IMG/VR virus record: IMGVR_UViG_3300025096_003559
Location: 1-52,432 of that record
Reading direction: 5' to 3' (one strand)
DNA length: 52,432 nucleotides
Source of the DNA: a virus
Under the pieces are notes generated by a model. That model made no database searches. It was not told where the DNA came from and was given only the letters and a program-made list of their open reading frames with translations. This document shows positions 18,942 to 50,200 of the stretch, piece after piece (position 1 is the stretch's first letter; each line of letters starts with the position of its first letter). A program made the position numbers and the translations under genes.

Positions 18942-20495
18942 TTATTCCTCTACTCTGAATTTAAACACATCTGAATATTCGTTCCAAGTTCCCACAGCAG
19001 AATCATAAAAAGCTACTTTTATCCCATAAGCGTATCCTGCTTGTAAAGTGGAAATGTCTAAATCAAAATAGCTACCGGAGAGATCATATGATAAATATGT
19101 ATGTCTGTCGCTACCTGTACCAAACGCAACAACATCTTTATCGTCAACTACTCTGACCACCTTAAAAGATGCGCTATCTAAATAAGTGAGTTGGGCAGTA
19201 TTGGTTGCTTTACTATATATTGTTGGATTCCAGTCTTTTTCTCTTGTATAGATTCTAAACTGCGCTGTCTCGTTTCTGTAATAAGTATCTCTTAAGTTGG
19301 TGATATTAAAGGCGTATTTTGGATATGGATTTATGACTGACGAGTCTAACGCTTTTGGTTTAATACTTCCTGTATGAAATACGGTGCTGCCAATTGCTGT
19401 TCCGGCACTGGATGTGTGCCAAACATCGAAGATTTTTGTCAAATTAACGCCTGGATAATATCCCGTGTTATTATCATTTGCAGCGGTTAATGCCAAAGAA
19501 CATGAATAGATTCCTGTTGAAACTTTACTCCCAGTGGCATTAATATGACCAGCGGTTGCAACTCCCCCCCCGACAGATAATGCAAGAGCAGAACCTGAAG
19601 TTTTTGTATTGTCGGTTGAGCCGGAAAAAAGGCTAACAAGGACTCTGTTATCACTGCCAAGACCGGGGAGATCTACTAATCTTCCTCGAACATAATTATA
19701 TAAATATAAAGTGTTTAGATTGTCTACGGCTGGTGCTAAGGAACTGCTATAATAAAAATTACCCCGATTATCCTTTTTAGTAGAATCCCAACGAGCTTCG
19801 ATTATTGGTCTTTTGAAAAAATATTCAGACCCTCTGGCAAAAAACTTTTTAGTGTAGGATGAGGAAGCCGCAGTTTCATTTAATAAAAAGATTCCCAGAC
19901 CATAATTATTTTTGCCCAAAGTAGAGCCACCGGCTCCAGCAGTTGATCCAGAAATCCATTGTTCAACCCAATCGCTAATATCGACTTCTAAGCCTTCCGT
20001 GCCATTATCAAAAGATGCAGTATATCTAGGCTCTGCGTGATAATCTCCACCGGCAGAGCCCCAATTTGTCACCCCAGCAGAATTACTATATGCAGAATTC
20101 CAATTGGCACTGCCGCTATCAGAATATGATTCCATATCAAGCCCAGTGCCTTCATCCCACGAACTTGATACTGCCGCAAGAATCATATTATAATTTCTAG
20201 GCAACGTAAAAGGGTGTTCTGCGTTAAACATACGAAGATAGAAGCTGACGCTTCCACTTGCAGGTATAACGCTATTGGTGCGATCTGTTTTTAATGAATT
20301 ACTGCCGGTTACATTAAATTTAACTAATATTCTTGAAAGCTCGACGGAGCCTGAGTCTTGTTGTCCATAAATTCTAAACACTTCGAGAGAATCGGACAAT
20401 CCCATATTTGAGCCCGTGCCACGGGCGATCAGATCGGACTTATAAGCATTTGTAATTGTTGTATCTGCAATTGCCGTATATCTTTTAATGCCCAT
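18942..20495 (-). CDS. Baseplate-module protein with a DNRLRE-like N-terminal domain, 517 aa
   Basis: The first 230 residues resemble the DNRLRE-type module found in secreted and surface proteins: an ADTTITNA opening, an N-x-G-x-S-x-x-L-E-V strand near residue 35, an S-R-I-L-V-K-F-N-V strand, and later a D-I-S-x-W-V-x-x-W motif with a GLGIFLL strand. This module is a beta sandwich often linked to carbohydrate or surface attachment. The C-terminal half is Ser/Thr/Tyr-rich and beta-like with no recognised domain. The gene lies directly after the gp6-like gene, sharing its stop/start boundary, and just before the 3492-residue giant. In T4 this position holds gp7, but I see no similarity to gp7. 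A role as connector between wedge and fibre is inference. Confidence 0.7.
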   Translation of the reverse strand: MGIKRYTAIADTTITNAYKSDLIARGTGSNMGLSDSLEVFRIYGQQDSGSVELSRILVKFNVTGSNSLKTDRTNSVIPASGSVSFYLRMFNAEHPFTLPRNYNMILAAVSSSWDEGTGLDMESYSDSGSANWNSAYSNSAGVTNWGSAGGDYHAEPRYTASFDNGTEGLEVDISDWVEQWISGSTAGAGGSTLGKNNYGLGIFLLNETAASSSYTKKFFARGSEYFFKRPIIEARWDSTKKDNRGNFYYSSSLAPAVDNLNTLYLYNYVRGRLVDLPGLGSDNRVLVSLFSGSTDNTKTSGSALALSVGGGVATAGHINATGSKVSTGIYSCSLALTAANDNNTGYYPGVNLTKIFDVWHTSSAGTAIGSTVFHTGSIKPKALDSSVINPYPKYAFNITNLRDTYYRNETAQFRIYTREKDWNPTIYSKATNTAQLTYLDSASFKVVRVVDDKDVVAFGTGSDRHTYLSYDLSGSYFDLDISTLQAGYAYGIKVAFYDSAVGTWNEYSDVFKFRVEE

Positions 20496-22300
20496 TATTT
20501 AGCGGTACCTCGTAAGTCTGAATCGGGATATTTAATTTCAAAAATTACATTTTTTGGTGCTTTAACAAATCTTCCATCCGAAGTTGTCTGAGCTTTAACA
20601 TTAAACATTGTGGTGGCATATCCAACTCCGGTTTTCTGTACCGCAGTAACACTCATTGTATCTACTACACCAGTAATGGAGTTTAGAAGGCGATAAATAT
20701 CCGATGTGGACAAATCTTCCCCTACGTCATATAATCTATCAAAATATGCCCGTAGCGCACTGACACATCGGTCTAACACCACAGCTTTATTTGCATCCAA
20801 ACGTGCTATAATTTCAAAGTTTATCCCCAGATTAACAATCTTTGCATCTAAAATATCTACAGAGTCATTTATCATCCTTTTTGTAGAAATCCACGTTTTA
20901 ATATTTTGTTTAATGACGCTATTGGTCGTTTCTAAATAGCCGTTTGTTGAGCGGGATATTACGTATATATTAATATTTCTCAAGTTAGAATCTCGATCTT
21001 GTATTACAGCGCATTTATCAACGCTGCCAAATCTGGGGGGTATAGAATAAATAAATGCTTTGTAGTCTTCGGCAGTAACAATCCTATTTTGTGCTGAATA
21101 CACCCCCTGAATAAGTTCGCGCAATTCTTCAATATTCGGAGGAGATATATCACCTTGTATTGGTTTTTCGTTGGTCACCTCCAGTGACTGTTTAACAGTC
21201 TGCATTGTGGTTCGAACAAGATTAAGTCTATTGGGAAAATCCAATATTATGCTTCCAAGTTGCGTGACCGTTGCAGTGGCAGCATTAGACATTGCCGCTG
21301 TATTGGCACGGTAATCAACTCGGATCTCTGTGTTTGAAGGTCCAACTCCAAACTTATCCGTTTTGATAAGGACCGAAGGATCTAGAGCAATATCTGTAAC
21401 ATATGTTTTAGAATGCAGATCTAATACAATATCTCTCGTATTTGCAAGAGACACATTCGAAAGTTCAGAATCGGAACCGTATCCAAATACGATATCTGTG
21501 CCAAATCTGTTTCTTTCAACCCTGTATCTACGAGGTACAATTACTGGCTTAAGAATATTCGGAGCTTGGAGGCTGGTAGACGCATCATTGTTTGTGATAG
21601 GGACATAAATAATATTTTGTGCCAAATTTTCAACTTCAAAATAATCATGACCATCACCATCGGTTACTGCAAGGATTTCCGTTACGTTATTGCCCGGTAT
21701 TGTCAATTTCCTAAATTTAACAAAATCGCCAATATTTTCAAACAATTTTGTTCTGGTTTCCCCGGAAACCACGGGACCAGAGGCTTTAATAGCAAAATGC
21801 GTTGGATCGCCGGTTGTACTATTAGTCTTTGCGGTGACTTGTTCATTTGCGCCATCAGCAAAATTAATATCTTGCAATAATGTAAACTGTGCGCCATTGG
21901 TAGCGACAAGGGTTGAACCAGCTTTTAAAATTGGCATATAGTCTGAATCGGGACCGGTTGCGCTTGAGTTTGCAGGTACTAAAATATATGCAGTAACATG
22001 TCCATATGTTGCACGGGCTCCTTGATGAGCGTATCCCATTGTGGCACCATGTTTAATAATATTTTCATATTCTATGGCGGTTGCCAAAAAACTTTCGTTT
22101 GCCTGATAATCTAAATAAAACGATAGCATGTCTCCTATGTAAGATGTGGCATCCAACATAAGAGCACCGAAACCTGCATCCGTAAAATCTTGAAAAGTAT
22201 CTGGATAGTATCGTTTTGCATAATCTATTAAATCGGTTTTAATAGATTGAAAATCTCTACTCAAATAATTTATTTTTACATTGTCTCTGTTTAGCGCCAT
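20495..22300 (-). CDS. Baseplate wedge protein, T4 gp6/phage Mu J-like, 601 aa
   Basis: The N-terminus has the hallmarks of the gp6/baseplate J superfamily: a YLSRDF motif near residue 12, then an F-T-D-A-G-x-G-A-L-M-L-D segment running into SYIGDMLSFYLDYQANESFL (about residues 39-72). A second diagnostic stretch, about residues 393-430, reads NIEELRELIQG..., then NRIVTAEDYKAFI; this is the conserved region in which J-type proteins carry R-x-V-T-x-x-D-Y. Gp6 forms the ring that holds the baseplate wedges together. The size (601 residues) is close to that of T4 gp6 (about 660). The gp25-like gene lies immediately upstream, the classical partner order. The start is supported by an AAAGGATA Shine-Dalgarno. 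Confidence in the family is high. Confidence 0.9.
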   Translation of the reverse strand: MALNRDNVKINYLSRDFQSIKTDLIDYAKRYYPDTFQDFTDAGFGALMLDATSYIGDMLSFYLDYQANESFLATAIEYENIIKHGATMGYAHQGARATYGHVTAYILVPANSSATGPDSDYMPILKAGSTLVATNGAQFTLLQDINFADGANEQVTAKTNSTTGDPTHFAIKASGPVVSGETRTKLFENIGDFVKFRKLTIPGNNVTEILAVTDGDGHDYFEVENLAQNIIYVPITNNDASTSLQAPNILKPVIVPRRYRVERNRFGTDIVFGYGSDSELSNVSLANTRDIVLDLHSKTYVTDIALDPSVLIKTDKFGVGPSNTEIRVDYRANTAAMSNAATATVTQLGSIILDFPNRLNLVRTTMQTVKQSLEVTNEKPIQGDISPPNIEELRELIQGVYSAQNRIVTAEDYKAFIYSIPPRFGSVDKCAVIQDRDSNLRNINIYVISRSTNGYLETTNSVIKQNIKTWISTKRMINDSVDILDAKIVNLGINFEIIARLDANKAVVLDRCVSALRAYFDRLYDVGEDLSTSDIYRLLNSITGVVDTMSVTAVQKTGVGYATTMFNVKAQTTSDGRFVKAPKNVIFEIKYPDSDLRGTAK

Positions 22301-22324
22301 AAAATATCCTTTTATTAAATATCG

Positions 22325-22729
22325 CTATGATAAATTAATAGTAAGCGTTTCCGAAGTATAGTCAGAATATATTGAGTAATCTATTACTACATTAAGATAA
22401 TTTGAGGGCGAAGACGGTTCTACCGACGATCCTACACCAGCAGGATGTTCTTGCTGAAAGTGCACAGAATTTATTGTAATATATGGTACATATTTTCTGG
22501 CTTGCTCAAATATCCGGCTTCGCAAATTAAAAAATATATCTTCAGTTGCATTTTCAAATAAATATTGTCTTATGCCAACTCCGAAATCGGGAATCATAAT
22601 TCTTTCCCCTGGAGAAGTTAAAACTACCATTTTTAGATTTTGCCGAGCCACCGCTCGCAATGTTTTATTTAGAGCATACCCATCCTGGGAATCTCTATAT
22701 AGAGGTAGTTTTGGAGACTTGCCTGACAT
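22325..22729 (-). CDS. Baseplate wedge protein, T4 gp25-like, 134 aa
   Basis: Residues about 22-60 contain the conserved GPW/gp25 pattern: N-K-x-L-R-A-V-A, then L-x-x-V-V-L-T-x-P-G-E-R-x-M-x-P-D-F-G-V-G-I-R-Q-Y-L-F-E-N. The length matches the usual 110-150 residues of gp25. This small protein is a universal part of contractile-tail baseplates and binds gp6 and gp53 to form the wedge core and start sheath assembly. Its close linkage to the gp6-like gene downstream (24-base gap) fits. A GGAGG Shine-Dalgarno lies upstream of the ATG. A 50-base gap separates it from the 1668-residue gene upstream. Together with the gp6-like gene this is the best evidence for a contractile-tail phage. Confidence 0.9.
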   Translation of the reverse strand: MSGKSPKLPLYRDSQDGYALNKTLRAVARQNLKMVVLTSPGERIMIPDFGVGIRQYLFENATEDIFFNLRSRIFEQARKYVPYITINSVHFQQEHPAGVGSSVEPSSPSNYLNVVIDYSIYSDYTSETLTINLS

Positions 22730-32902: not shown

Positions 32903-33297
32903 TATATCTCCTTTTGTTTTATTATATCTGTGGTTGAATAGCTTCCTATTCTATCAAAAAACAATAATTTTCCAGCATATTGTTGACCAACAACTGTTTT
33001 GTTTTTCCAGTCGGAGCCTATTACCATTATATCTGGTTTTGTCTCTTTAATCAAATTTTCTAATTCTTTTGTTGACTCAAACACCAACACTTCATCAATA
33101 GCGGATATTGATTCAAGGACATATTTTCTATCTTCAACACAATTTATAGGTCTGCCCTTTCCCTTATCCTGCTTAACTTTTTCATCAGAGTCAATACCTA
33201 TAATTAGTTTATTGCCCAAAGATTTAGCATATTTAAATAGCTCTATGTGCCCTCTATGCAAAACATCAAAACATCCATTGGTCCAAACGATTTTCAT
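32902..33297 (-). CDS. HldC/RfaE C-terminal-type sugar-phosphate nucleotidyltransferase, 131 aa
   Basis: This belongs to the cytidylyltransferase-like superfamily, closest in pattern to the adenylyltransferase half of HldE (RfaE domain II). From the chosen start the N-terminus reads WTNGCFDVLHRGHIELF, giving the HxGH active-site motif at His14-His17. An IGIDSDEKVKQDKGKGRPIN segment (substrate loop) and a C-terminal S-T-T-D-I-I complete the family pattern. The enzyme would join a sugar-1-phosphate, typically heptose 1-phosphate, to ATP. I chose the internal ATG at 33295-33297 because the 14 extra residues of the longer frame overlap the kinase gene, while this ATG overlaps the kinase stop as ATGA. 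The matching kinase is the next gene upstream. Confidence 0.85.
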   Translation of the reverse strand: MKIVWTNGCFDVLHRGHIELFKYAKSLGNKLIIGIDSDEKVKQDKGKGRPINCVEDRKYVLESISAIDEVLVFESTKELENLIKETKPDIMVIGSDWKNKTVVGQQYAGKLLFFDRIGSYSTTDIIKQKEI

Positions 33298-34043: not shown

Positions 34044-35084
34044 TTACCTCTTTAAAAACTTTTTGCCGTTTCTAACTTGCTCTCTCCAATACTCAAGAAG
34101 ATCTTTCATAGTTGTTTCAAATGGGACTTCTGGCTTCCATCCCGTATGTTTTTCAAATTTTGATGTATCTGGTACTTGAAGATCCGCATCAATGGGTCTA
34201 AGTCGCTCAGGATCTGTGTGGATCTCTATGTTGTTAACAGTAGAAAGGCTTATAAGATATTTTAACATATCTCCGACTGTACAGGAAAAAGCACCCCCAA
34301 TATTATAATACTCACCAGCAATAGGGTTTTTTGTAACAAGCATATAATATGCTCTGACCGCATCTCTAACATCAGACCACGTTCTTAAAGAGTCTAGATT
34401 CCCAACCTCTACCACTGGTGGTAACATTTTTGCCTCAATCATGGCAATTTGTTTTGCAAAGGTAGATTCGGCAAAAACATCTCCCCTACGAGGTCCAGTA
34501 TGAGTAAACATTCTAGTTGTCATAACCGTCATTCCATACGCCTCTGCATAGAACCTTCCAATTAAATCGGTGCCCACTTTCGATATAGCATATGGAGAAG
34601 CTGGGTGGAAGCCCACCTCTTCATGAATTGGTAAATATTCTTTTGGCACTCTTCCAAAAACTTCCGACGAAGCACAAACATGAATTATAGGATCTAAATT
34701 TAATTTTTTAATGGCATCTAAAACCTTTGCTGTTCCTATAATATTGGTTTCTAATGTTTCTAAAGGTGAATCAAAGCTGGTTTTTGGATAGCTTTGAGCC
34801 GCCAAATGAAATACATAATCTGGTCTTGTTTTTTCAAATATGGATAATAGAGAACTTAAATCATTAATATCTCCATACACCAGTTCAATATTGTTTTTAT
34901 TATTAATCTGGTGCATCAAGTGTTCAATGTTATCCATACGATCATTCCATCGTACTAGCCCGTATATCTTCCAGTCAGTGTTATCAAGCAAATAATCTGC
35001 TAAATGAGAACCAACCATTCCTGTAATTCCAGTTATAAGAGCTTTTTTTTGGTTATCAGATTGCATTTTGGCACTGTTGTTCAT
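34044..35084 (-). CDS. GDP-mannose 4,6-dehydratase-like SDR, 346 aa
   Basis: An extended short-chain dehydrogenase with the glycine motif GITGMVGSHL (19-28), a SSEVFG segment with catalytic-type Ser/Glu (139-144), and Y-x-x-x-K as YAISK (Tyr165, Lys169). The TGPRRGDVFAESTFAKQIA stretch (PRRGDVF-type) matches the GDP-mannose 4,6-dehydratase/GDP-4-keto-6-deoxymannose reductase group. The family converts GDP-mannose to GDP-4-keto-6-deoxymannose; relatives in Campylobacter do the same to GDP-heptose. The length (346) is typical. It is the only canonical, fully equipped SDR-type sugar enzyme in this cluster. The start could also be ATG six codons later. It overlaps the radical SAM gene upstream and precedes the kinase gene by three bases. 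Confidence 0.8.
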   Translation of the reverse strand: MNNSAKMQSDNQKKALITGITGMVGSHLADYLLDNTDWKIYGLVRWNDRMDNIEHLMHQINNKNNIELVYGDINDLSSLLSIFEKTRPDYVFHLAAQSYPKTSFDSPLETLETNIIGTAKVLDAIKKLNLDPIIHVCASSEVFGRVPKEYLPIHEEVGFHPASPYAISKVGTDLIGRFYAEAYGMTVMTTRMFTHTGPRRGDVFAESTFAKQIAMIEAKMLPPVVEVGNLDSLRTWSDVRDAVRAYYMLVTKNPIAGEYYNIGGAFSCTVGDMLKYLISLSTVNNIEIHTDPERLRPIDADLQVPDTSKFEKHTGWKPEVPFETTMKDLLEYWREQVRNGKKFLKR

Positions 35085-40190: not shown

Positions 40191-40884
40191 CACATGTCTC
40201 TTTTGGTTTAAATTCTTCTGGTCTTCCATCGATGACTAGCTCATAGTTATAAGAATTCGTTTCATATTCTTCATAAATTTTAGAGGCGACAAATGATGGC
40301 TCAAGTCCATATGTATATTCCGACACTGTTTTAATTCTAGTGGGATAAACATTAAACACCCGAATATTGTTCTCAGAAGCTTCTAATCTTAAACTTTGTG
40401 AGAATCCTCGTAAACCCCACTTAGTTGCAGAATGTATGCTTCGTAACATTTTAGGTTCTATTCCCACAATTGAATTGATATTAATAATTGCTCCAGGCGA
40501 ATTTCTAGATATTATCGGGTAAATTTTATTAGTTAAAATAATTGGAGAGATAAGGTTCACCGATAGGCTTAAATTAATCTGTTCTTCTGTCATTTCCTGA
40601 AGTGGTTGCCCATAACAGGGAATCGCAGCATTATTGACCAGAACACAAATATTGTGCAAATCTGAAGAACGTGTCAATTGCTCAATTGTATCCTGATCCC
40701 TGAGATCTCCTTTAATGGTACAAATGACATTATCAACTTTCCTTCTTGCAAGTTCAATTTTTTCTGTGTTCCTGCCGTGAATAATAACTCCATAGCCGTT
40801 TTCTGAAAATTTTTGTGCAATTGCTAATCCCAAGCCCTTGCTCGATGCAGTAACTAATATGTTTTTATTGATATCTTGCATCAT
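40183..40884 (-). CDS. Short-chain dehydrogenase/reductase with His in place of the active-site Tyr, 233 aa
   Basis: A classical SDR with NILVTASSKGLGLAIA (TASxGxG cofactor site, 8-23), NNAA at 84-87, an IINSIVG strand with Ser138, and the catalytic motif. The motif reads H-S-A-T-K (His151 to Lys155) where family members have Y-x-x-x-K. The codon is CAT, one base from TAT. The rest of the protein is intact and well formed, with the length expected. It may be an inactive reductase, a sugar-binding relative, or use another proton donor. It overlaps the B12 radical SAM gene upstream by about 20 bases and the epimerase gene downstream by eight. The start could be either of two adjacent ATGs (40882-40884 or 40879-40881). 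Confidence 0.8.
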   Translation of the reverse strand: MMQDINKNILVTASSKGLGLAIAQKFSENGYGVIIHGRNTEKIELARRKVDNVICTIKGDLRDQDTIEQLTRSSDLHNICVLVNNAAIPCYGQPLQEMTEEQINLSLSVNLISPIILTNKIYPIISRNSPGAIININSIVGIEPKMLRSIHSATKWGLRGFSQSLRLEASENNIRVFNVYPTRIKTVSEYTYGLEPSFVASKIYEEYETNSYNYELVIDGRPEEFKPKETCDV

Positions 40885-42889
40885 TTCCGAAAGGATTTCT
40901 TTCGGACCCCTCTATATCAACTTTAATATTACTGTCACCAACCGTACACTCATATAGGTATGCACCCTTTTTATTACACCACCAGACAACCTTCTCACAC
41001 CATTCTTCCCAGGAATTCCATGTATCCACCGTTCGATCAATAAAATGAGTATAGTCTCCTTTCAACAAACGAGCTTTATTACCACTCATAATAGTATCAT
41101 ATATTTCTAAAATATTATAGTCCAATACGATTTCTAGCTTATCATTTTTATTTGGAAGTTTGATAAGAGACTTATTTAAGAGAACTGCCTGATCAATTAT
41201 TTCTTCGCTGTCTTCGACGCCGTTCTGTCTTAAAGCTTCGCACAAAATATTTTTAGCATCATTATAGAACTCTTCAATTTCTCCACCCGTTACCACTTCA
41301 ATAAAAGCTAACTCATCAGGGGGCCAATAAATATTAAGCCACTCTTTAGAAGGGCAAAATTCAGGACCGCCCAACTGCATGTCTTTTGCATGTTGATAAA
41401 ATCTTTTTTGTATCTTGCAAAGTGCAGAATCAGAATCAAAATCAAAGTTCATGAAGGCATCGAATATTACTCTGTAGTCAACATCAAAAACTGAATTTGC
41501 TATAGTGATAGGAATCTGGAATATTTTGTTAAAATACAAAAAACCGACTATTGAGGCAAAATAACGAGCCCTTACCCAATCCTCACCATTCATGGTTTTT
41601 GTTCCGACCACCATTTGTTGGGATTCAGAAACTTCTTCTGTCTCTAGAGTTCCATGGATATTTATGATGTCAGACTCAACAACTTGTATTTGATACTTTT
41701 CCATATACTCTGGGTTGGCCATTTCTGTATTAGGAAGTATTGATAGATTATTGAACTGAATCCTATTGTGCTGCCCTCTTTCAATCAAATTGACAGTTCC
41801 TTCTATAAAGCTTTCATATGTCTCTTTAGGCAGACCTAATATCAAATCGGAAAAAGTTTTGATACCGTCATGTGTAAATTTTCTTTGAAGTTCAAAAAAG
41901 TGATCTAGCTTTATGTTGTGTCGTTTAATGGCTTTTAGCGTAGGCTTGTGAACAGACTCAAACGCAATCAAAACACCCTTTGATAAGCCGGAAGTTGCTA
42001 AAAGTTTCTGCACTTCGTAAGAAGAGGCAGAGTTATTTTTTGTATTTTGCACAGATAGGGCATGTGGATATCCAAACTTCTTTTTGTTATCAGCAAATCT
42101 TTTGGTGATAGAGTAGTCGCGATCTTTATACATTCCAAAATTTGCATCACAACAGAATATAAATTCTATCTTATTTTTAGAAAACCAATCTGCTTCCAAA
42201 AATAAACGATCTTCTAAGCTGTATTTTTGAACCTTCTTTTTGAACCCTACACCCCAGTCACAATATGCACATGAAAAAGGACACCCTCGATTTGTCTCCC
42301 ATAAACCTATCCACTTTTCACTAGGATTATTTTTGATTAGATTGTCAAAATAACCTTCCAAGAAAGGCGAAGGAATTTCATTCATATCCTTAATTCTCTC
42401 ACACTGAGGGTTTGTTATGAAGTTACCCTTTTCATTTCTATAGGTTATCGATGGAACATTGCTCCATTCCTTGTTATGAAAATTATTTAAGAGATCAGCA
42501 AAAACCCTTTCGCCTTCTCCAATTGCAGCAATGTCGATAAAATCATATTTTTGAAGATATTTGTCTGTCTCGTTATCTGGAGCGTGACACCCCCCAAAAA
42601 CAATTAAGCAATTAGGATTCACGACTTTAAGTTGCTTGGCAATTGCTAAAGATAAATTGTGATTCCACACATATGTGCTAAAAGCGGCGATGTCGGCGTC
42701 TTTAAGATGCTCAACGGCATCTCGAACTTTGGTGCGCTTATAAATCGGATCTAAAAATTCAAATTTGTCAAATCCAGAAACGTGAACAGAGGCATAAGAA
42801 TATAAAAATCCCAAAGAGAGGGGCAAATAATTTTGACCAGAAAAACTATTGTTAATCTGTATCATGCCGACTTTAATATTAGTTGCCAA
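40865..42889 (-). CDS. B12-binding-domain radical SAM protein, 674 aa
   Basis: The N-terminal 190 residues resemble a B12-binding domain (VGMIQINNSFSGQN, AAFSTYVWNHNLS, CLIVFGGCHAPDNETD, IGEGERVFADLL). The radical SAM cluster motif is Cys203, Cys207, Cys210 (RGCPFSCAYC) and is followed by a full barrel and a long C-terminal part of more than 300 residues with no recognised domain. The start is TTG at 42887-42889, supported by an AAGGAGA Shine-Dalgarno about seven bases upstream; the alternative ATG, eight codons later, has no such site. No DxHxxG loop is seen. It shares its design with two other proteins in the cluster but is longer. The substrate is unknown; C-methylation or another radical step on a sugar or alkyl chain is possible. 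Confidence 0.85.
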   Translation of the reverse strand: MATNIKVGMIQINNSFSGQNYLPLSLGFLYSYASVHVSGFDKFEFLDPIYKRTKVRDAVEHLKDADIAAFSTYVWNHNLSLAIAKQLKVVNPNCLIVFGGCHAPDNETDKYLQKYDFIDIAAIGEGERVFADLLNNFHNKEWSNVPSITYRNEKGNFITNPQCERIKDMNEIPSPFLEGYFDNLIKNNPSEKWIGLWETNRGCPFSCAYCDWGVGFKKKVQKYSLEDRLFLEADWFSKNKIEFIFCCDANFGMYKDRDYSITKRFADNKKKFGYPHALSVQNTKNNSASSYEVQKLLATSGLSKGVLIAFESVHKPTLKAIKRHNIKLDHFFELQRKFTHDGIKTFSDLILGLPKETYESFIEGTVNLIERGQHNRIQFNNLSILPNTEMANPEYMEKYQIQVVESDIINIHGTLETEEVSESQQMVVGTKTMNGEDWVRARYFASIVGFLYFNKIFQIPITIANSVFDVDYRVIFDAFMNFDFDSDSALCKIQKRFYQHAKDMQLGGPEFCPSKEWLNIYWPPDELAFIEVVTGGEIEEFYNDAKNILCEALRQNGVEDSEEIIDQAVLLNKSLIKLPNKNDKLEIVLDYNILEIYDTIMSGNKARLLKGDYTHFIDRTVDTWNSWEEWCEKVVWWCNKKGAYLYECTVGDSNIKVDIEGSERNPFGNDARYQ

Positions 42890-43823
42890 GCCTATTCTCC
42901 TTATACCATTCTATTACTTCTTTTATTCCATCTTCTATAGAAATAGTTGGAGCGAATCCCATGTCCTTTGCCCTTTCTATATTAAGTATTCTCATCTTAT
43001 CGCCAGTTATTTTATCTTTATCCCAGAAAACATCGGGCGGATTATCAATATTGCTTAAAATTATTTCCACAAGCTGCTTTATTGAGTGTCCAGTACCACT
43101 ACCAAGATTTATAGGTCGAAGCGGTCCTGGTGAATTTTCCATAGCAATGATCATCCCCCTTGCAATATCGCTACTATGTATGAAATCTCTAATATTAGAA
43201 CCGTCACCCCATACAACTAAGGGGTTAATTCCACTTAAAGCCTTTTTTATAAGAGATGGCACAACCATGGCTTCATCAGAATCAAAATCATCATAAGGAC
43301 CATATGTATTTGCCGGTCTTACAATAGTGATGTCATCCCAGCCATACTCTATCTGATACGCTTCGGCTTGCAACTCACCCATTCGTTTTGCCCAGCCTGC
43401 GAATTTATCATTTTTAGATGGATAAGTTTGCCATACGTCGTCTTCGTGAGAAATTTCCGAAGGTGCGTAGACACCGAGAGTGCTTGTATAGAGATATTTT
43501 TTGACGCCGCGCTCCTTAGCTGCTCGCATTAAGTTTGTATTAAAAAGCAGCATTGGGACAAAACAACTTGCTGGGCGCTCTTTCATTGTTTTGGGAGAGC
43601 CCTTGGAACATAATAAGTTAAAAACATAGTCCATTCCATCACAAGATGCTAAACAGTTCTCATAGTTTGTAAGGTCAAGCTGTAGATTGCGAATCTGTGG
43701 GTTGTCAGAATCTTTTAAATCTGCCACTGTAACTATAGAGCCCTTTTCTAAGAGAAGATCCACCAACTGTTTACCTATAAGACCGTTGCCGCCCGCAATC
43801 AATATCTGCTTGCCCTTAAACAT
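42879..43823 (-). CDS. NAD-dependent epimerase-like protein with Ala at the catalytic Tyr position, 314 aa
   Basis: Extended SDR with the glycine motif AGGNGLIGKQ (10-19) and typical later parts: LYTSTLGVYAP (111-121), VRPANTYGPYDDFDSD and a WGDGSNIRDFIHSSDIA stretch. The motif that would be Y-G-W-x-K reads A-G-W-A-K (Ala142 to Lys146). The codon is GCA, so this is not a one-base change from Tyr. Related GWAKRMGEL-type proteins are, I believe, widespread, so the change may be a family feature. It could act as an epimerase, a reductase or a pseudo-enzyme. It overlaps the radical SAM gene by 11 bases and the ColD-like aminotransferase-fold gene upstream by eight, in the same coupled run. Confidence 0.75.
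   Translation of the reverse strand: MFKGKQILIAGGNGLIGKQLVDLLLEKGSIVTVADLKDSDNPQIRNLQLDLTNYENCLASCDGMDYVFNLLCSKGSPKTMKERPASCFVPMLLFNTNLMRAAKERGVKKYLYTSTLGVYAPSEISHEDDVWQTYPSKNDKFAGWAKRMGELQAEAYQIEYGWDDITIVRPANTYGPYDDFDSDEAMVVPSLIKKALSGINPLVVWGDGSNIRDFIHSSDIARGMIIAMENSPGPLRPINLGSGTGHSIKQLVEIILSNIDNPPDVFWDKDKITGDKMRILNIERAKDMGFAPTISIEDGIKEVIEWYKENRLGN
42896..42902 (-). promoter_or_regulatory. Shine-Dalgarno deciding a TTG start
   Basis: The minus strand reads AAGGAGA, six bases before the TTG at 42887-42889. This supports TTG over the ATG eight codons downstream as the start of the 674-residue radical SAM protein. Confidence 0.6.
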
Positions 43824-45009
43824 AATTTAATTTCTCACATAGGCTTGTAATTTGTTGCTCTGTAAGGTCGGGATGGTTTCCAACATATAGTCCATTATCA
43901 TGAATATGGTTTGCAACATCAAGATTACCTATAGTTTTAAAATTATATTTTTTAAGATAGGGCTGTCTTGTCTGATTGCCGCCACCGGCTGTGCCGATTC
44001 TATGTTCAACCCCCTCTTGTTCCAAAACATCGCACACTCTTTCAATCGTAACTTGTGTAAATTTTTCAGTCGGTAAACTACCTCCTAAAGTATCAGGATT
44101 GATAATCAATGGAAGGGCAAAATTGCTGTTTCCTTCAGCCAGATAATTAGTAAAGTATTTGTCACTATTGAGGTTATCCAGCCATATTTGTAGATTTTTC
44201 TTTCTTATTTGAATATTTAAATCTAATCTTTTGATTTGTTTAAGTCCCAAAACAGCATTTAATTCTGCACTTCTCATATTATATCCTGGAACTGCAAACG
44301 TAAACAAAGGATTTAAGTCAGAAGAATAGTATTTTTGTTGTATCTTTTTCGACGCCTCTCTAGTCATGCCATGCGATCTAAACATCCTTGCCAATTGATA
44401 GATTTCTTCATTATTTGTACAAATCATACCTCCTTCAATAGTGGTCATATGATGCCCAAAATAAAAGGAAAAACATGACATGTCACCTATAGAACCAACT
44501 TTTTTTCCTTTGTATTTGGCACCATGCGCTTCACAGCAATCCTCGATTAATAATAATCCATTGTCTTTTGCTATTTTAATAATGCGTTCATTGATCCCAT
44601 TAAATCCCAAAGCATGAACCAAAACTATTGCTTTTGTATTTTCGTTAATTGCGGATTTAATATTTTCGTATGTAGCCGTCATCGTTTCCAATGCCACATC
44701 AACAAATACCGGCACAAATCCAGTATTTATTATCGAGGAAACATCTGATATCCACCCTATAGCGGGCACAATTACCTCACCGCTGGCTCCCTTTAATTCC
44801 CTGACTATGGCAGTCGTGATATAATTGGCGGACGCCCCAGAGCCAACCATAACACTATATTTGGTGCCAAGCCACTTAGACCAAACTTCTTCAAATTCGG
44901 CAACCTTTGGTCCGTTAGTAAATCGATTACTGTTTAAAATAAATTCTGCTAAGTGTTCTTTATCTTCTCGCGAGATGTTATCATTAATCAGCGGCCATTT
45001 AAAATTCAT
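43816..45009 (-). CDS. ColD/RfbH-type PLP-dependent 3-dehydratase (DegT/DnrJ family), 397 aa
   Basis: A DegT/DnrJ/EryC1-fold PLP protein. Most members carry an active-site Lys in an S-F-Y-x-x-K motif and act as aminotransferases. Here the motif is SFYFGHHMTTIEGG with His186 and His187 in place of the Lys. That is the mark of the sugar 3-dehydratases: ColD (GDP-4-keto-6-deoxymannose 3-dehydratase, about 388 residues) and RfbH/E1 of 3,6-dideoxyhexose pathways (about 437). The length, 397, is nearest ColD. The IEDCCEAHGAKYKGKKVGS segment (155-173) and the QTRQPYLKKY ending also fit. It would remove the C3 hydroxyl of a 4-keto-6-deoxy nucleotide sugar. The start has an AAGGAGAA Shine-Dalgarno and overlaps the previous stop as TAATG. 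Confidence 0.85.
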   Translation of the reverse strand: MNFKWPLINDNISREDKEHLAEFILNSNRFTNGPKVAEFEEVWSKWLGTKYSVMVGSGASANYITTAIVRELKGASGEVIVPAIGWISDVSSIINTGFVPVFVDVALETMTATYENIKSAINENTKAIVLVHALGFNGINERIIKIAKDNGLLLIEDCCEAHGAKYKGKKVGSIGDMSCFSFYFGHHMTTIEGGMICTNNEEIYQLARMFRSHGMTREASKKIQQKYYSSDLNPLFTFAVPGYNMRSAELNAVLGLKQIKRLDLNIQIRKKNLQIWLDNLNSDKYFTNYLAEGNSNFALPLIINPDTLGGSLPTEKFTQVTIERVCDVLEQEGVEHRIGTAGGGNQTRQPYLKKYNFKTIGNLDVANHIHDNGLYVGNHPDLTEQQITSLCEKLNYV

Positions 45010-46352
45010 TATTTGTTCTCCTTATCGGTGTAACCAACGGGTCCATATCCATGCGCCTTAACAAGATCTTGAAGTTTTAAATAATTGTTGACAATTATTT
45101 CACTTTTCTCTCCTTCGCCCCATGGCGTATTTTCATCGTACTCAAAGGTCAAAGTTGGAATCTCTTTTTCGTACCTGCTGTGCATATGCATAGTATTATC
45201 CCATGATGTTTTAATCTCTTTAATTCCAAACTTTTTTGGATTGTTATAAACTGCGGTTCCCGGTCTAACTGTAAAAAGCGACAAATATACAGCATCTGGA
45301 TTTGTCTCTTGTATAAACGACCAAGTTTGTTCTACAATGTTCGGTGGCTCTCCAGGTAGACCAATAATCATATAGATGCGAGTTTCAATTCCTGCCTTCT
45401 TAAGAAGCTTTATACTTTCTCTTGCTCTCTCAATTTTAATTCTTTTATTAATTATGTCTAATGACTTCTGAGAAACACTTTCAACTCCCATACACATTGT
45501 AATACATCCGGCGGCTTTAGATAATCGCGCAGTTTCTGGTGTAATTCCATCAACGCGACACTGTCCTTTCCACACTACTCCTGTGCTACCAATTGCCTCT
45601 AAATAAGCAGTAGCTTTTCTTAATGTGAGAGGCATACAAATTTCATCCAATAAACTGATTCCTCTCACACCATATTCACGCTTAAGATACTCAATCTCAT
45701 CTATAATAAGGGCTGGATCTCTAAATCTTATACCAGGACTATATTGTTTTGATGAGGATAATACACAAAACGAACAACTATATGGACACCCTCGACTAAA
45801 CATCGTAGTTGTACCAATAATCTTATCATATCCTGGTGTATTTTTTAGTGTTAATAAACCTGGCCTAGCTATTGCTGATTTTGGTAAATATTTTCGAAGA
45901 GGGTATGGATAATCATTAACATCCACACTTTTAGAGGCATACTTTTGTTTTAATTTTAAATCACGAATATCATTGATCGCTTGAATAATTGATTGTTCGC
46001 CGTCGCCAAGAATAATTGAATCAAAAATCTCTAAAGATTCATCTTGAAAAGTTGTTACGTGAGGACCTCCCGCAATATGAAGTGCTTTGGGGTATTTCTG
46101 TTTCAATTGATTAACAATTGATACCTGCTCATGATAATCTAATGTATAGACAGAGTGTAAATAAACATCACACTCTGGAATATGATAAAGGGCAAAATTC
46201 TTTTTAATACCTCTTAAATCTATCAACGAGACATCAACTTCAGAACCAAAATGTTCTTCAAGAACCGTAAGAATCTGAAAATGTGTGTGAGGATCTCCTC
46301 GGAAGGGATCATGTAGGTATTCACTACTTGGAAAAATAAATCCAATCTTCAT
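45009..46352 (-). CDS. B12-binding-domain radical SAM protein, 447 aa
   Basis: The N-terminal 160 residues form a B12-binding-type domain: a KIGFIFPSS strand, CDVYLHSVYT, HIAGGPHVTTFQDESLEIFD and IILGDGEQSIIQAI. The radical SAM cluster motif is Cys189, Cys193 and Cys196 (RGCPYSCSFC), followed by EIEYLKREYGVRGISLLDEICMP (barrel) and MIIGLPGE. It is the shortest of the three such proteins here and lacks a long C-terminal extension. Family members are often annotated B12-dependent radical SAM methyltransferases. There is no DxHxxG motif. The gene precedes the ColD-like gene with a TAATG overlap and follows the E1-beta-like gene by three bases. The three B12 proteins may act on successive positions of one product. 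Confidence 0.85.
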   Translation of the reverse strand: MKIGFIFPSSEYLHDPFRGDPHTHFQILTVLEEHFGSEVDVSLIDLRGIKKNFALYHIPECDVYLHSVYTLDYHEQVSIVNQLKQKYPKALHIAGGPHVTTFQDESLEIFDSIILGDGEQSIIQAINDIRDLKLKQKYASKSVDVNDYPYPLRKYLPKSAIARPGLLTLKNTPGYDKIIGTTTMFSRGCPYSCSFCVLSSSKQYSPGIRFRDPALIIDEIEYLKREYGVRGISLLDEICMPLTLRKATAYLEAIGSTGVVWKGQCRVDGITPETARLSKAAGCITMCMGVESVSQKSLDIINKRIKIERARESIKLLKKAGIETRIYMIIGLPGEPPNIVEQTWSFIQETNPDAVYLSLFTVRPGTAVYNNPKKFGIKEIKTSWDNTMHMHSRYEKEIPTLTFEYDENTPWGEGEKSEIIVNNYLKLQDLVKAHGYGPVGYTDKENK

Positions 46353-46355
46353 TTT

Positions 46356-47279
46356 CTATCTCTTCTTTATTGTGCGAAGTCCGCAATACTCCGCAACTTT
46401 GATAATAATTTTTTCTGCACTGGGAGGCAAATTATCAACGTCTGGATAAAATCCAGCCGATTTGGGTTCCAAACATAGAGTTCTCACTCTTTTATTTACT
46501 TTCATCATCATCGTGTGCGCGATACTACTAGCTGCTCCTTCTTCATAATCATCATCAAGAACTACACCACCAAATTTAGAATTTGCCAAGGCTATCTCCC
46601 AGTCTTCTTTAAAATTAAATGGTTTAATCCAAAGCTGATGAATAATGTTTACTTTTAGTCCTAATTTCTCTAATTCTTTTTGAGCTTCCGCTGCGGCGAA
46701 TCTTGTAATAGAAATAGGAAAAAGAGTAATATCAGCTTTGGGGTGTATAATATTAAAAAGCTCTTTGCTATTATCATAGCTTTTTCGGTGTTCCGATATA
46801 TAATAAACATCATCATCGTTCATAAAACTTTTATAAGCAAACTCATATTCTCGGGGTGTCATTGGGGATGCAATTTTTACACCCGGCATTCTGTGATAAA
46901 TTGAATGATGTGATGAGCCCGCAACTGGACCGATGCCTCCTTCCATCGCAATACCTCTTACCAATAAAGGACAAGGACGTTGCCATATTTCTTTTGATTT
47001 CATTGCATAGTTTGCAATAATAGGAGAGTTATACCACTGGAAGCCTTGATATCGCACAACATAAATTGGTCTTTTTCCTGCTAAAGCTGCTCCCACAACG
47101 ATGCCACCGCCTGCGACATCTGCCATAGAAAGCTCAATCATTCCATCTTTTTCATATAATTTGGGAAGAGTTCCCCCAACCCAGCCAACAGCAGTTAAAC
47201 ATTGTCCATAACACCTGGAACCTTGTTTCAAGTGTTGGTGCGTGATGTCTTTTATTGTTTCTCTAACTGTTTTTGCCAT
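46356..47279 (-). CDS. Thiamine-dependent E1 beta-subunit-like protein, 307 aa
   Basis: Resembles the beta subunit of pyruvate/acetoin/branched-chain 2-oxoacid dehydrogenase E1 and the C-terminal two-thirds of transketolase: LSMADVAGGGIVVGAALAGKRPIYVVRYQGF (50-80), then a GGIGPVAGSSHHSIYHRMPGVKIASPM segment (about 114-140) with His residues where E1 beta has its GPxHS...H-x-P-G motif. The gene overlaps the alpha-like gene by 28 bases, so the two would be made as a pair. No E2 (lipoyl acyltransferase) or E3 (dihydrolipoamide dehydrogenase) gene is present in the window. A free E1 pair can carry out C-C bond formation with a ketone acceptor. That reading suits a sugar cluster; it remains inference. 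Confidence 0.8.
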   Translation of the reverse strand: MAKTVRETIKDITHQHLKQGSRCYGQCLTAVGWVGGTLPKLYEKDGMIELSMADVAGGGIVVGAALAGKRPIYVVRYQGFQWYNSPIIANYAMKSKEIWQRPCPLLVRGIAMEGGIGPVAGSSHHSIYHRMPGVKIASPMTPREYEFAYKSFMNDDDVYYISEHRKSYDNSKELFNIIHPKADITLFPISITRFAAAEAQKELEKLGLKVNIIHQLWIKPFNFKEDWEIALANSKFGGVVLDDDYEEGAASSIAHTMMMKVNKRVRTLCLEPKSAGFYPDVDNLPPSAEKIIIKVAEYCGLRTIKKR

Positions 47280-48085
47280 ATCTGTTCGACCATTTGTTTA
47301 GTTTGTTCATGAATTTGCGAAGCCTCGTGACCAAGGATATCCATTTGTTCTTGATATCTATCAAAAATATTTTCGTCATCAATACCAGCCCCAGAATGCC
47401 AAAATTTGCGATGAGTATTAATATTTACTAACATGGGCTTTTCAAAAACGCTTACTAAAGCCTGTTTGATTTGTGCGGGGTCATCTTCAATATCAAGCCC
47501 TTGCATATTAAATGCTTCAGCAACATTGTGCATATTCCAGTTTCTTCTTACCTTCTTTTCAGTTAGAATAGAAAGGTTATTATCCTCAACTACGAAAAGT
47601 ATGGGTAATCTCTTTGTCGAAGCCCAGCCAAGCGCCCCTAAAACATAATCTTCTTCGGCAGATGCATCTCCCATATATACTATTGTTGGATGCTGGGTTT
47701 GGTAACAGTGCCCGACCGCAATCGGTACTTGACTCCCCATCAAACCATCATGTCCAAAAATATTTTTTTCCTTTGACTGTATGGACGCAGATCCGCCCAT
47801 GCCATTAGCGCATCCACTTTTTCTACCTAATAGTTCATCTATAAGTCTTTCTATTGGCGCATCAAATGCGAGATAAGTAGAATGCCCTCTATGTTGTATA
47901 AATATATTTGGCTGCACATTTAATTCTTTCATTACCTCTGCAATTGAGGCAGAAATATATTCTTGTCCTGCTGATAAATAAATAGGAAATTTAAACATCT
48001 TGTTTGTAATTCCATCATAAACATATTGTTCAAAATTTCTACATAATGATGCTCTTTTAAACACATTTAGTCTAAAATTATTCAT
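47252..48085 (-). CDS. Thiamine-dependent E1 alpha-subunit-like protein, 277 aa
   Basis: Matches the E1 alpha fold: Y-L-S-A-G-Q-E (36-42) at the start, a FIQHRGHSTYLAF segment, G-C-A-N-G-M-G-G-S-A (91-100), G-L-M-G-S-Q-V-P-I-A-V-G (114-125), and the thiamine-diphosphate motif Gly139-Asp140 ending at Asn169-Asn170 (GDAS...EDNN). E1 alpha of 2-oxoacid dehydrogenases is usually 320-400 residues, so this one is shorter; the phosphorylation-loop region of the eukaryotic type is not apparent. Together with the beta-like gene downstream it would form an alpha2-beta2 decarboxylating enzyme. The alpha/beta pair lies next to three B12 radical SAM proteins and a ColD-like gene. An acyl transfer to a keto sugar is the most attractive role. 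Confidence 0.8.
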   Translation of the reverse strand: MNNFRLNVFKRASLCRNFEQYVYDGITNKMFKFPIYLSAGQEYISASIAEVMKELNVQPNIFIQHRGHSTYLAFDAPIERLIDELLGRKSGCANGMGGSASIQSKEKNIFGHDGLMGSQVPIAVGHCYQTQHPTIVYMGDASAEEDYVLGALGWASTKRLPILFVVEDNNLSILTEKKVRRNWNMHNVAEAFNMQGLDIEDDPAQIKQALVSVFEKPMLVNINTHRKFWHSGAGIDDENIFDRYQEQMDILGHEASQIHEQTKQMVEQIWQKQLEKQ

Positions 48086-48473
48086 ATTTGTTCTTTATAT
48101 GTTGCAATGTATCTGACCAGTTTTCAAAATGATACCCTTTGTCATCAATATAAAGCTGTGCCCTTGGTTTTTCTGCTGTAACTTCTTGTATATACTGCAT
48201 AACATTGTGGCTCGTTAACCACTCGATGACTAATTCAGTGCCGGTTTTTCCATTCACAAGCGGACGATTTGGTTTTGCCTTAGCGGTAAAAATAACTATA
48301 TTATAGCTTTCTGATAATTGTTTTATCGCCTCTAAGGAGCCCTCAATAGGCTCTCCGTAACAGGTGCCATCATGAAACCCCTTGTCAAAAGTGTGTACTA
48401 CGCCATCAAAATCAATTGCAACATTTTTTAAATCATTTTCAAACCCTGGTGGTACTTCTTTATTGCTAAACAT
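48078..48473 (-). CDS. Small HAD-like protein, 131 aa
   Basis: A short HAD-superfamily protein: IDFDGVVHTFD gives the nucleophile and acid/base Asp21 and Asp23, IVIFTAKAKPNR (59-70) holds the motif-II Thr/Ser-type residue, and YIDDKGYHFENW carries the motif-IV acids (Asp110, Asp111). It lacks a cap domain. Compact HADs of this form are common in polysaccharide gene clusters and large phages, and are annotated as hydrolases or phosphatases. Substrate unknown. I considered GmhB (heptose-bisphosphate phosphatase), but this protein lacks the GmhB zinc loop and is too short. It overlaps the E1-alpha gene and the cupin gene by eight bases each. Confidence 0.7.
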   Translation of the reverse strand: MFSNKEVPPGFENDLKNVAIDFDGVVHTFDKGFHDGTCYGEPIEGSLEAIKQLSESYNIVIFTAKAKPNRPLVNGKTGTELVIEWLTSHNVMQYIQEVTAEKPRAQLYIDDKGYHFENWSDTLQHIKNKYE

Positions 48474-49137
48474 TTTTATCCATAACCATTACCATGGTAT
48501 TATTCTTAATTTTATTGAACACTTTTGTAAGATCACTAATATTATTGGCTGCCACAATATCACCAGCCCCAGCTACGTTAATGTTGTATTCAGTGACGAT
48601 ACCGCCCTGCAAAAACATAATGTTTGTGTCTTGCTTCACTTTATCAAAAAAGCTAATATCGTCTATTTTTGTTACCGTGAGTTCTGAATTTGCAATATGA
48701 TATGTCCGTGGCTCAGAGTCTGTGGAATCTTCAATCCAAAGACACGCCTCTTCTTTGGGATATTCAAAAGTAGAGTTTTCATAAGGCTTGCCTTCCCTTC
48801 CGTAACTGTCTTTAAACCTCACTAAATCATGTTTATCTACCGGGGCTTCAATTTCCAAAACCCATGCACCCCTTTCTCCGGTTGCCATGGTAGAGTGAAA
48901 AAGCCCTTTTCTAATCATGATTTTATTCAATGGATCTAATTTAAATTTATTGCTCAAAAACGATACTTCTGCATTGCCATCTAACAATATTAATCCAGTT
49001 GTTTTGTTAGGATGACAATGCATTGAAGTGTTATGTCCTTTTTGGATATACAAGCACCAAAGTGCAACCTCATCGTTTTCATATGCTAAGTATTCGTAGC
49101 CCCATGGTTTTTTGACTATATTGTGTTTATGACCCAT
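48466..49137 (-). CDS. Cupin-domain protein, mannose-6-phosphate isomerase-like, 223 aa
   Basis: The N-terminal 110 residues are a cupin of the type II phosphomannose isomerase group: KPWGYEYLAY (10-19), MHCHPNKTTGLILLDGNAEV with likely metal ligands His40 and His42, and GLFHSTMA with His81. The last 90 residues (about 135-223) are a separate region ending in a GGIVTEYNINVAGAGDIVAANNISDL segment that I do not recognise. A cupin of this kind could isomerise or epimerise a sugar phosphate, or be a structural or regulatory companion. It lies in a coupled run, overlapping the small HAD gene by eight bases and starting three bases after the DJ-1-like gene's stop. The function is a general sugar-related role. 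Confidence 0.7.
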   Translation of the reverse strand: MGHKHNIVKKPWGYEYLAYENDEVALWCLYIQKGHNTSMHCHPNKTTGLILLDGNAEVSFLSNKFKLDPLNKIMIRKGLFHSTMATGERGAWVLEIEAPVDKHDLVRFKDSYGREGKPYENSTFEYPKEEACLWIEDSTDSEPRTYHIANSELTVTKIDDISFFDKVKQDTNIMFLQGGIVTEYNINVAGAGDIVAANNISDLTKVFNKIKNNTMVMVMDKNV

Positions 49138-49140
49138 TTT

Positions 49141-49683
49141 TTATCTTCCACTAGACCACTCATTATATACATCAAACGATGTTAACATCCATTGCCCCAT
49201 CCACTTATAGTGAGGACATGTAATGATGTTATTAGATACTACTGCGGGGGCGTCTACATATGTTGCGCCAGAGTTAGCAATATCGTCTCTAATGCTATAA
49301 TATCCAGAAATTTCCCTTCCCTCTGTTACCTTGGAAGAGATTAACATCTGTGCACCATGGCATATACAAGCGATCACCTTACCTCTACTATCCCATTCAC
49401 GGATAAAATCAAGAACTTGTGTTTCTTGGCGTAGCTTTTCCAATGCCTTTACCCCGCCGGGTATAACCATTAAGTCATACTCATTCAAAAATTGTTCTGA
49501 CTTAGTATGCAACTCGTCGGCTGTTCTAGTACACTCCATATATGTTCCTAAAATTCCATGAATTCGCCCTAACTTATCGGCTAGAATATCTACTTCGAAC
49601 TCTTCTTCAAGAAGCCGATAATAAGGATATATAACTTCGTGATCTTGAAATTTGCTAAAAGTAACTATTAATGCTTTTTTCAT
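49141..49683 (-). CDS. DJ-1/PfpI-family protein, 180 aa
   Basis: Clear DJ-1/PfpI superfamily: an ALIVTFSKFQDHEV opening with a Glu16 at the usual pocket position, LMVIPGGVKALEKL (71-84), and the nucleophile elbow ACICHGAQML with Cys108 and His109. C-terminal strands end at TCPHYKWM. Length and layout are normal for the family, which includes glyoxalase-like enzymes, proteases and amidases; the exact reaction is not predictable. In a sugar cluster a role in deglycation or in a keto-sugar hydration step is only a guess. It follows the RmlC-like gene by ten bases and precedes the cupin gene by three. Confidence 0.8.
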   Translation of the reverse strand: MKKALIVTFSKFQDHEVIYPYYRLLEEEFEVDILADKLGRIHGILGTYMECTRTADELHTKSEQFLNEYDLMVIPGGVKALEKLRQETQVLDFIREWDSRGKVIACICHGAQMLISSKVTEGREISGYYSIRDDIANSGATYVDAPAVVSNNIITCPHYKWMGQWMLTSFDVYNEWSSGR

Positions 49684-49693: not shown

Positions 49694-50200
49694 TTAAGAC
49701 TTAATTGTCCTGTCTCTTAATTGTAACATAGGATTGTCAATTGGCCAAATTATATTAAGCCTTTTGTCATCCCATTTTAAAGTAAACTGATCTGACACAT
49801 CTGGGTATTCTCCTGGATAATGCCATTTGTAGTGAAATACACACTGATTACTTAAGACCAAAAACCCATTTCCAATCCCCGGTGAAAGTAACACTTGTGT
49901 CCTATTTTTATCGTTCAATATTTCCCAATCCCATTGCAAATATGTTGGAGAATCTTTGCGATTGTCAACAGTGACAAAATATATTTCTCCATGTAAACAT
50001 GTGATAAGCTTGTGTGATTTAAAATCTCCGTGAATTCCTCTTAAAACATTTTTCCGCGATGTGGACACTTTATCATGATTATATGGCAGATCATTCTCGC
50101 CAGCGCCAGCTTTCCACAGCGTCCATAGTTCTCCTCTAAAATCTGTATATATATCAGGAGAAATATAGTTTACTCCATCCGTTATTCTTCTTGTACCCAA
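49694..50200 (-). CDS. RmlC-like (dTDP-4-dehydrorhamnose 3,5-epimerase family) protein, 168 aa
   Basis: A cupin of the RmlC family. Features are DFRGELWTLW (20-29), VLRGIHGDFKSHKLITCLHGEIYFVTVD (52-79) with the family's R-G-x-H (His57), and a C-terminal VFHYKWHYPGEYP. The PGxAHGF segment of typical RmlC reads P-G-I-G-N-G-F, so one conserved position has changed from His to Asn. The length, 168, is a little short of the usual 180. The enzyme would epimerise C3 and/or C5 of a 4-keto nucleotide sugar, which fits a pathway with a 4,6-dehydratase product. It overlaps the unknown gene upstream by 19 bases. Confidence 0.75.
   Translation of the reverse strand: MGTRRITDGVNYISPDIYTDFRGELWTLWKAGAGENDLPYNHDKVSTSRKNVLRGIHGDFKSHKLITCLHGEIYFVTVDNRKDSPTYLQWDWEILNDKNRTQVLLSPGIGNGFLVLSNQCVFHYKWHYPGEYPDVSDQFTLKWDDKRLNIIWPIDNPMLQLRDRTIKS

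Follow-up and report, generated by a model that had tools for sequence, protein, structure and literature searches.

Separate E1-alpha and E1-beta genes unaccompanied by E2 or E3 have been described in the pathways for avilamycin (AviB1/AviB2), paulomycin (Pau11/Pau12), everninomicin (EvdU5/EvdS3), and kibdelomycin (KbDH-alpha/beta). The first three have been proposed to be sugar-branching E1-type pairs (PMC4425429, PMC4753412, PMC10338323), KbDH-alpha/beta joins pyruvate to cyclic ketones in vitro, and branching by an E1-type pair in the aldgamycin pathway has been shown through feeding and gene knockout (PMC12247030). YerE catalyzes a ThDP-dependent carboligation on CDP-3,6-dideoxy-4-keto-glucose that leads to yersiniose (PMC12247030), and split transketolase-like proteins (AziC5/C6 of azinomycin and those of miharamycin) are named in reviews as candidate sugar branchers (PMC12247030, PMC9570651).

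The stretch of DNA analyzed here, positions 1 to 52,432 of IMG/VR record IMGVR_UViG_3300025096_003559 and referred to as the window (52,432 nucleotides), is a contig of a marine-type phage, of the myovirus kind, that carries such a pair. Like the pairs of the four antibiotic pathways, it consists of separate E1-alpha and E1-beta genes without E2 or E3 and, like the alpha-KADH2 pairs (AviB1/AviB2, KbDH type), it is found amid deoxysugar genes for a keto sugar acceptor; both hallmarks of the alpha-KADH2 type, an E2-less E1 pair in a deoxysugar cluster and a keto-deoxysugar acceptor pathway alongside, were observed. This likeness is one of context and of published descriptions, and it should be recognized that the alpha-KADH2 pairs belong to actinomycete antibiotic clusters, whereas the present pair belongs to phage and bacterial clusters of the glycan type. 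The present pair also differs from the alpha-KADH2 descriptions in having constant DJ-1 and cupin partners, which are not mentioned in the AviB-type literature found. In the beta subunits of its family, an Asp stands where all other E1 proteins sampled have the catalytic Glu. With YerE and ErwE, which act in the formation of yersiniose and erwiniose in LPS, the pair shares a surface glycan context. Those pathways start from a 3,6-dideoxy-4-keto sugar as acceptor, which is what a His-type (DdhC/ColD-like) 3-dehydratase would supply, and ThDP carboligation follows; however, YerE is a single-chain flavoprotein of the acetolactate synthase type, whereas the present enzyme is of the two-gene E1 type, with E1_dh in one chain and Transket_pyr in the other. 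The housekeeping pyruvate dehydrogenase (PDH) and branched-chain (BCKDH) E1 components (alpha2-beta2) have the same domain order and ThDP-binding fold as the pair, which differs from them in the absence of E2 and E3, in the substitution of Asp for Glu, in its shorter subunits, and in forming a fully supported separate clade. The most likely role of the gene set is to branch the carbon skeleton of a surface sugar and not to produce acyl-CoA. Our specific reading, that the pair is an E2-independent carboligase that places the acyl unit of a 2-oxo acid on an NDP-4-keto-3,6-dideoxy sugar, draws on its resemblance in context to AviB1/AviB2, KbDH, and YerE and is put forward with slightly better than even confidence.

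The E1 Pair and Its Phage Context

The phage character of the window is marked by baseplate wedge genes (20495..22729, minus strand; PHROGs tail families) and by T4-type late sigma factor genes in the region from 20 to 32 kb (PHROGs), and the sugar gene set spans about 33 to 52 kb. That the sugar genes are contaminating host DNA was considered and rejected: they occur on the same strand of the same contig as structural genes of the phage, and the identical type of E1 pair is present in 44 distinct viral loci. A single open reading frame of 3492 residues (8462-18940) lies amid the tail genes and probably encodes a giant tail-associated or adhesin protein.

The E1-alpha-like gene (47252..48085, minus strand), which comes first in the order of translation, encodes a diphosphate-binding ThDP subunit of 277 residues that matches Pfam E1_dh with an E-value of 6.3e-20 (71.8 bits, cut-off 22). 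The E1-beta-like gene (46356..47279, minus strand) encodes the pyrimidine-binding subunit, of 307 residues, with matches to Transket_pyr (1.8e-10) and Transketolase_C (8.6e-6) that are both above the Pfam cut-offs, so that the pair has the domain content of housekeeping E1 subunits (E1_dh plus Transket_pyr/Transketolase_C). The coordinates of the reading frames and the profile matches confirm the original prediction that the two genes overlap by 28 bases (47252..47279, minus strand) and lie amid sugar genes, which were identified on either side of the pair in Pfam and NCBIfam profile searches. The overlap is not a chance event, because the two E1 genes share exactly 28 bases at 53 of the 84 independent loci where both are present; it is 22 or 25 bases in 16 more.

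Distribution and Phylogeny of the Family

Two scans of viral contigs yielded 33 and 39 loci and a scan of bacterial genomes yielded 48, which, after removal of repeats, left 44 viral and 47 bacterial loci. The gene set is common to phages and to bacteria of the ocean and groundwater; the bacterial carriers include Pelagibacteraceae, SAR116, records labeled Thiothrix, beta- and gammaproteobacteria, Verrucomicrobiales, Omnitrophota, and candidate phyla such as Yanofskybacteria. The closest cellular relative of the window E1-beta is 72% identical and is encoded in a cluster (locus L073) that keeps the gene order of the window, DJ-1, cupin, HAD, E1-alpha, and E1-beta. Among isolated-phage records there was no match to E1-beta and the matches to E1-alpha were weak, plasmid sequences contained no match to the window E1-beta, and PHROGs has no family matching either subunit. 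The E1 pairs found on Streptomyces plasmids are BCKDH-like or have no assigned use, and a sequence search of the PDB with the E1 proteins returned only the E1 components of 2-oxoacid dehydrogenases.

In maximum-likelihood trees, each subunit forms one group on long branches, apart from PDH, branched-chain, RenH-like, and other E1 proteins, with a branch support of 100/100 for beta and 100/99 for alpha; the family does not group with the PDH/BCKDH E1 proteins. Scores against the NCBIfam PDH E1 models are far below the cut-offs (112.4 bits against 393.85 for E1-alpha and 42.9 against 321 for E1-beta). Both proteins are remote from housekeeping E1. As judged from their sequences, the pairs of phages and bacteria constitute a coherent ThDP family that is set deeply apart. 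With dN/dS values of 0.04-0.27 between close homologue pairs, the E1 pair is under strong purifying selection.

Natural fusions join E1-alpha to E1-beta in Yanofskybacteria (L112, 9020-10903; L115, 9014-10909; L120, 6689-8584) and the cupin to E1-alpha in Omnitrophota (L108, 8358-10028; L118, 5264-6982; L119, 5894-7528). A short (about 200 residues) E1-alpha-like protein, possibly a split or minimal ThDP subunit, is encoded in L080 (10912-11520), L083 (10918-11520), L077 (1691-2293), L025 (11981-12586), and L031 (4182-4814); in the Pelagibacteraceae loci (L077, L080, L083), its gene comes directly after that of E1-beta.

An alternative is a transketolase-like reaction, in which a ketose phosphate would donate two carbons as a hydroxyacetyl group and the recipient would be either a carrier or a sugar with an aldehyde or ketone function; a reaction of this kind has been proposed for the split transketolase-like proteins of azinomycin (AziC5/C6) and miharamycin. 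The fold class is the same and, in a fold search with a model of the natural E1-alpha-E1-beta fusion (pLDDT 87), the top PDB matches are transketolases, but this modeled match is not discriminating, because transketolase chains likewise carry both domains and the ranking mainly reflects a query with both in one chain. A similar two-carbon transfer has been proposed for the RenH-like proteins of tetrahydroisoquinoline pathways, and some of the better plasmid matches of E1-alpha that carry a name are RenH proteins, but RenH falls outside the family in the trees of both subunits. Although a cupin like phosphomannose isomerase (PMI) would fit the ketol isomerization of the product, and split transketolases stand on the review lists of sugar-branching candidates cited above, the sequence of the pair is of the E1 type (Pfam E1_dh) and not of the transketolase type, and we regard this reaction as unlikely.

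Partner Genes

The most constant neighbors of the pair are a cupin and a DJ-1/PfpI-like protein. Among loci with enough flanking sequence, the cupin is within 6 kb of the pair in 97% of the viral and 88% of the bacterial loci, and the DJ-1/PfpI gene in 97 and 85%, respectively. The window cupin (48466..49137, minus strand) matches Pfam MannoseP_isomer with 25.3 bits (cut-off 23.6) but scores only 27.5 against the NCBIfam GMP_PMI equivalog (cut-off 373); its sequence thus marks it as a relative of type II phosphomannose isomerase. His40, His42, and His81 and a D-L-x-R..D.YGR motif are invariant or nearly so in the cupin, and a fold search with its structural model (pLDDT 93) returns generic cupins. 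The DJ-1/PfpI-like protein (49141..49683, minus strand; Pfam DJ-1_PfpI, 4.4e-34) has an invariant nucleophile, Cys108, which is present in 100% of 88 homologues. A small HAD-like protein (48078..48473, minus strand), encoded between the cupin and E1-alpha, matches PHROG 1238 (5e-17) and had no match in a Pfam search; HAD-like genes are present in 15 of 33 viral loci. A B12-binding radical SAM enzyme (45009..46352, minus strand; Pfam Radical_SAM and B12-binding) is encoded directly downstream of E1-beta, and such genes accompany the pair at 14 of the 33 viral loci and at 11 of the 34 bacterial ones.

The surrounding cluster includes an NDP-sugar 4,6-dehydratase (34044..35084, minus strand; Pfam GDP_Man_Dehyd, 2e-78) that is nearest to GDP-mannose 4,6-dehydratase, the NCBIfam gmd model giving the highest score among dehydratase models (184.6 bits) but one under its cut-off. 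The product of 42879..43823 (minus strand) is an NDP-sugar short-chain dehydrogenase/reductase (SDR) nearest to GDP-L-fucose synthase (NCBIfam Fcl, 125.8 bits, under the cut-off) and is a candidate reductase or epimerase. Profile searches identified two more SDR genes (39240-40229 and 40183-40884, minus strand), and an RmlC-like 3,5-epimerase is encoded by 49694..50200 (minus strand; Pfam dTDP_sugar_isom, 3.9e-34). The phage sugar cluster contains altogether three B12-binding radical SAM enzymes (35056-36954, 40865-42889, and 45009-46352) and a HemN-type radical SAM protein (36965-38431), the last of which exceeds the NCBIfam hemN cut-off. Two overlapping genes (32902-33339 and 33294-34040) correspond to a split HldE-like heptose kinase and adenylyltransferase, which suggests a heptose branch in the same glycan as the product of the sugar cluster.

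Linkage to a ColD-type 3-Dehydratase

The gene at 43816..45009 (minus strand) encodes a protein with the DegT fold that might be taken for an aminotransferase. Its best match in the PDB is ColD, the GDP-4-keto-6-deoxymannose 3-dehydratase (2gms, 2e-58), and the CDP-sugar 3-dehydrase of the DdhC type is also matched (3bcx, 3e-42). His186 (codon 44452-44454) stands where the PLP-binding Lys sits, as in ColD, and the same is true of almost all DegT genes adjacent to the pair. Because a His replaces the PLP lysine in a DegT fold, the protein is classified from its sequence as a sugar 3-dehydratase of the ColD/DdhC type. Records of Synechococcus phage ACG-2014f (KJ019091 and kin) contain a DegT homologue 38% identical to the window protein and no match to the E1 pair.

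A DegT homologue is found within 6 kb of the pair in 91% of the viral and 50% of the bacterial loci. In 20 bacterial genomes, the DegT genes lying no more than 15 kb from the pair comprise 17 with His and 3 with Lys, as compared with 4 and 26 elsewhere (p = 7e-7); when six genomes with a second E1 pair are omitted, the counts are 11/3 versus 3/15 (p = 9e-4). These p values are a guide only, as the 20 genomes are not fully independent, and the genes of L183 and L186, which are far from the pair, were scored as Lys by eye.

The second pair in those comparisons retains the canonical Glu. Such Glu-type pairs, without E2, are present in the sugar clusters of L099 (13947-16245), L108 (918-4143), L117 (12942-14934), and L073 (518-1567), and another is on a plasmid of Azospirillum ramasamyi (L201, 6037-8050) with no annotated E2 beside it. 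Directly after the plasmid pair comes a DegT gene whose lysine position is occupied by His; a His-type DegT gene likewise adjoins the Glu-type pairs of L108 and L117 and, in L108, is located between the alpha and beta genes. The Glu-type pairs therefore resemble the Asp-type family in being E1 pairs without E2 that are, in several cases, beside a His-type DegT gene, but they differ in the canonical Glu, in having no constant cupin or DJ-1 partner, and in belonging to a separate clade; their subunit sizes are like those of Pau11/Pau12. They support the link between an E1 pair and a 3-dehydratase, although the 3-dehydratase of a few clusters may be the partner of the Glu-type pair instead.

A point against the carboligase reading is that half of the bacterial loci have no DegT gene closer than 6 kb, so that the acceptor may not be a 3-deoxy sugar in every case, or the gene may be more distant. 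This also lends some weight to a second alternative, in which the four-gene set (DJ-1, cupin, and the E1 pair) would produce a building block for a side chain, namely an acyloin, an aldehyde, or an acyl substituent of an amino or hydroxy sugar, the ColD-type enzyme being merely co-located in variable glycan clusters. The set persists in these loci beside varied sugar genes, and the DJ-1 and cupin proteins fit the chemistry of small aldehydes or ketols. Nevertheless, the enrichment of His-type dehydratases is strong relative to the same genomes, the proximity of DegT in the viral loci is high, and no acyl carrier, CoA ligase, or N-acyltransferase is seen as a constant companion; a pathway of this kind therefore seems rather improbable.

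Active-site Residues

In E1-alpha, Gly139, Asp140, and Asn169 are invariant among 49 phage homologues, and Asp140 (codon 47666-47668) and Asn169 (codon 47579-47581), in the GDA ... DNN motif (minus strand), correspond to the ligands of the Mg-diphosphate. The third residue of the GDG motif is Ala or Ser in most members. In E1-beta, Asp54 (codon 47118-47120, minus strand) is aligned by HMMER, without gaps, to the catalytic Glu of solved E1-beta structures; Asp occupies this position in 95 of 95 distinct members, as compared with Glu in 12 of 12 reference E1-beta proteins. In the related decarboxylase superfamily, the catalytic Glu is kept in 94% of sequences and is replaced by Val in glyoxylate carboligases (PMC3534367). 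A departure from Glu throughout a family is therefore unusual, though it has a precedent. The Asp could nonetheless lower or change activity, which is a point against the carboligase reading.

Because Asp replaces the Glu in every member, and GDA or GDS replaces GDG in most, it might be supposed that the pair carries out no ThDP chemistry and has a structural, binding, or non-ThDP catalytic role. The invariance of the Mg-diphosphate ligands and the strong purifying selection argue against this, as does the activity of other ThDP enzymes that depart from the consensus, those with Val for Glu (PMC3534367) and JanthE, in which CDG stands where the consensus has GDG (PMC12247030); this interpretation was rejected and is given only a slight probability.

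Absence of E2 and E3

As the original prediction stated, the window is without E2 and E3; profile searches of its 52,432 nucleotides detected no 2-oxoacid_dh (E2), lipoyl, or Pyr_redox_2 (E3) domain. Other carriers of the pair gave a similar outcome: no E2 or lipoyl domain is present in 16 further phage contigs that bear the E1 genes and measure 68-186 kb, making 17 phage records in all, which may be fragments. Among 20 bacterial genomes that have the pair, 9 encode an E2, which on the same contig is never closer than 84 kb, and none was found in the other 11, although many of the 20 are incomplete. The possibility that this is an ordinary E1 that uses the E2 and E3 of the host to make acyl-CoA during infection, which would accord with its E1 domain content and with the carriage of metabolic genes by phages, was rejected as very improbable in view of the separate long-branch clade of both subunits, the scores far under the PDH equivalog cut-offs, the replacement of the catalytic Glu, the several bacteria that have the pair and show no E2, and the constant linkage to cupin and DJ-1 rather than to E2.

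Proposed Function

The carboligase reading arises because an E1 without a lipoyl acceptor is tied to an enzyme that makes a 4-keto-3,6-dideoxy sugar. E1-alpha and E1-beta would form one ThDP enzyme, which may be an alpha-beta heterodimer or an alpha2-beta2 assembly. After decarboxylation of its 2-oxo acid substrate, probably pyruvate, the enzyme would direct the resulting acyl carbanion not to lipoyl-E2 but to an activated deoxy sugar, at its keto group, and the product would be a C-branched sugar bearing a tertiary alcohol. The acceptor would be an NDP-4-keto-3,6-dideoxyhexose generated by the 4,6-dehydratase and the ColD-type 3-dehydratase. GDP-4-keto-3,6-dideoxymannose is the likeliest candidate, because the 4,6-dehydratase is nearest to the GDP-mannose type and the SDR encoded at 42879-43823 is nearest to GDP-fucose synthase. 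An SDR would afterward reduce or epimerize the branched sugar before its incorporation into a surface glycan; both the cupin and the DJ-1-like protein may act in the same step or in immediate preparation or clean-up, and the phage might use the product to alter the glycan of its host or of the virion. The parallel drawn originally, that of an E1-like pair acting on a keto sugar and not on E2, is well supported by the lack of a nearby E2, by the linkage to a ColD-type enzyme, and by the remoteness from housekeeping E1, whereas that the branch is specifically an acetyl group is something that we only infer.

More tentatively, and with rather less than even confidence, we suggest that these pairs may represent a ThDP carboligase family absent from the literature found, one that has Asp for the catalytic Glu, forms a unit with DJ-1 and cupin, and makes C-branched deoxy sugars that abundant marine bacteria and candidate phyla build into their surface glycans; phages would have acquired it and would carry the whole branched-sugar pathway. 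If the branching reading is correct, two-subunit E1-type sugar branching, hitherto mainly a feature of actinomycete antibiotics, would also occur in the glycans of abundant marine bacteria, Pelagibacteraceae among them, and in those of their phages, and the DJ-1 and cupin partners would gain a biochemical role. A ThDP family that runs on Asp rather than on the near-universal Glu would, in addition, make the role of this residue testable in a natural system.
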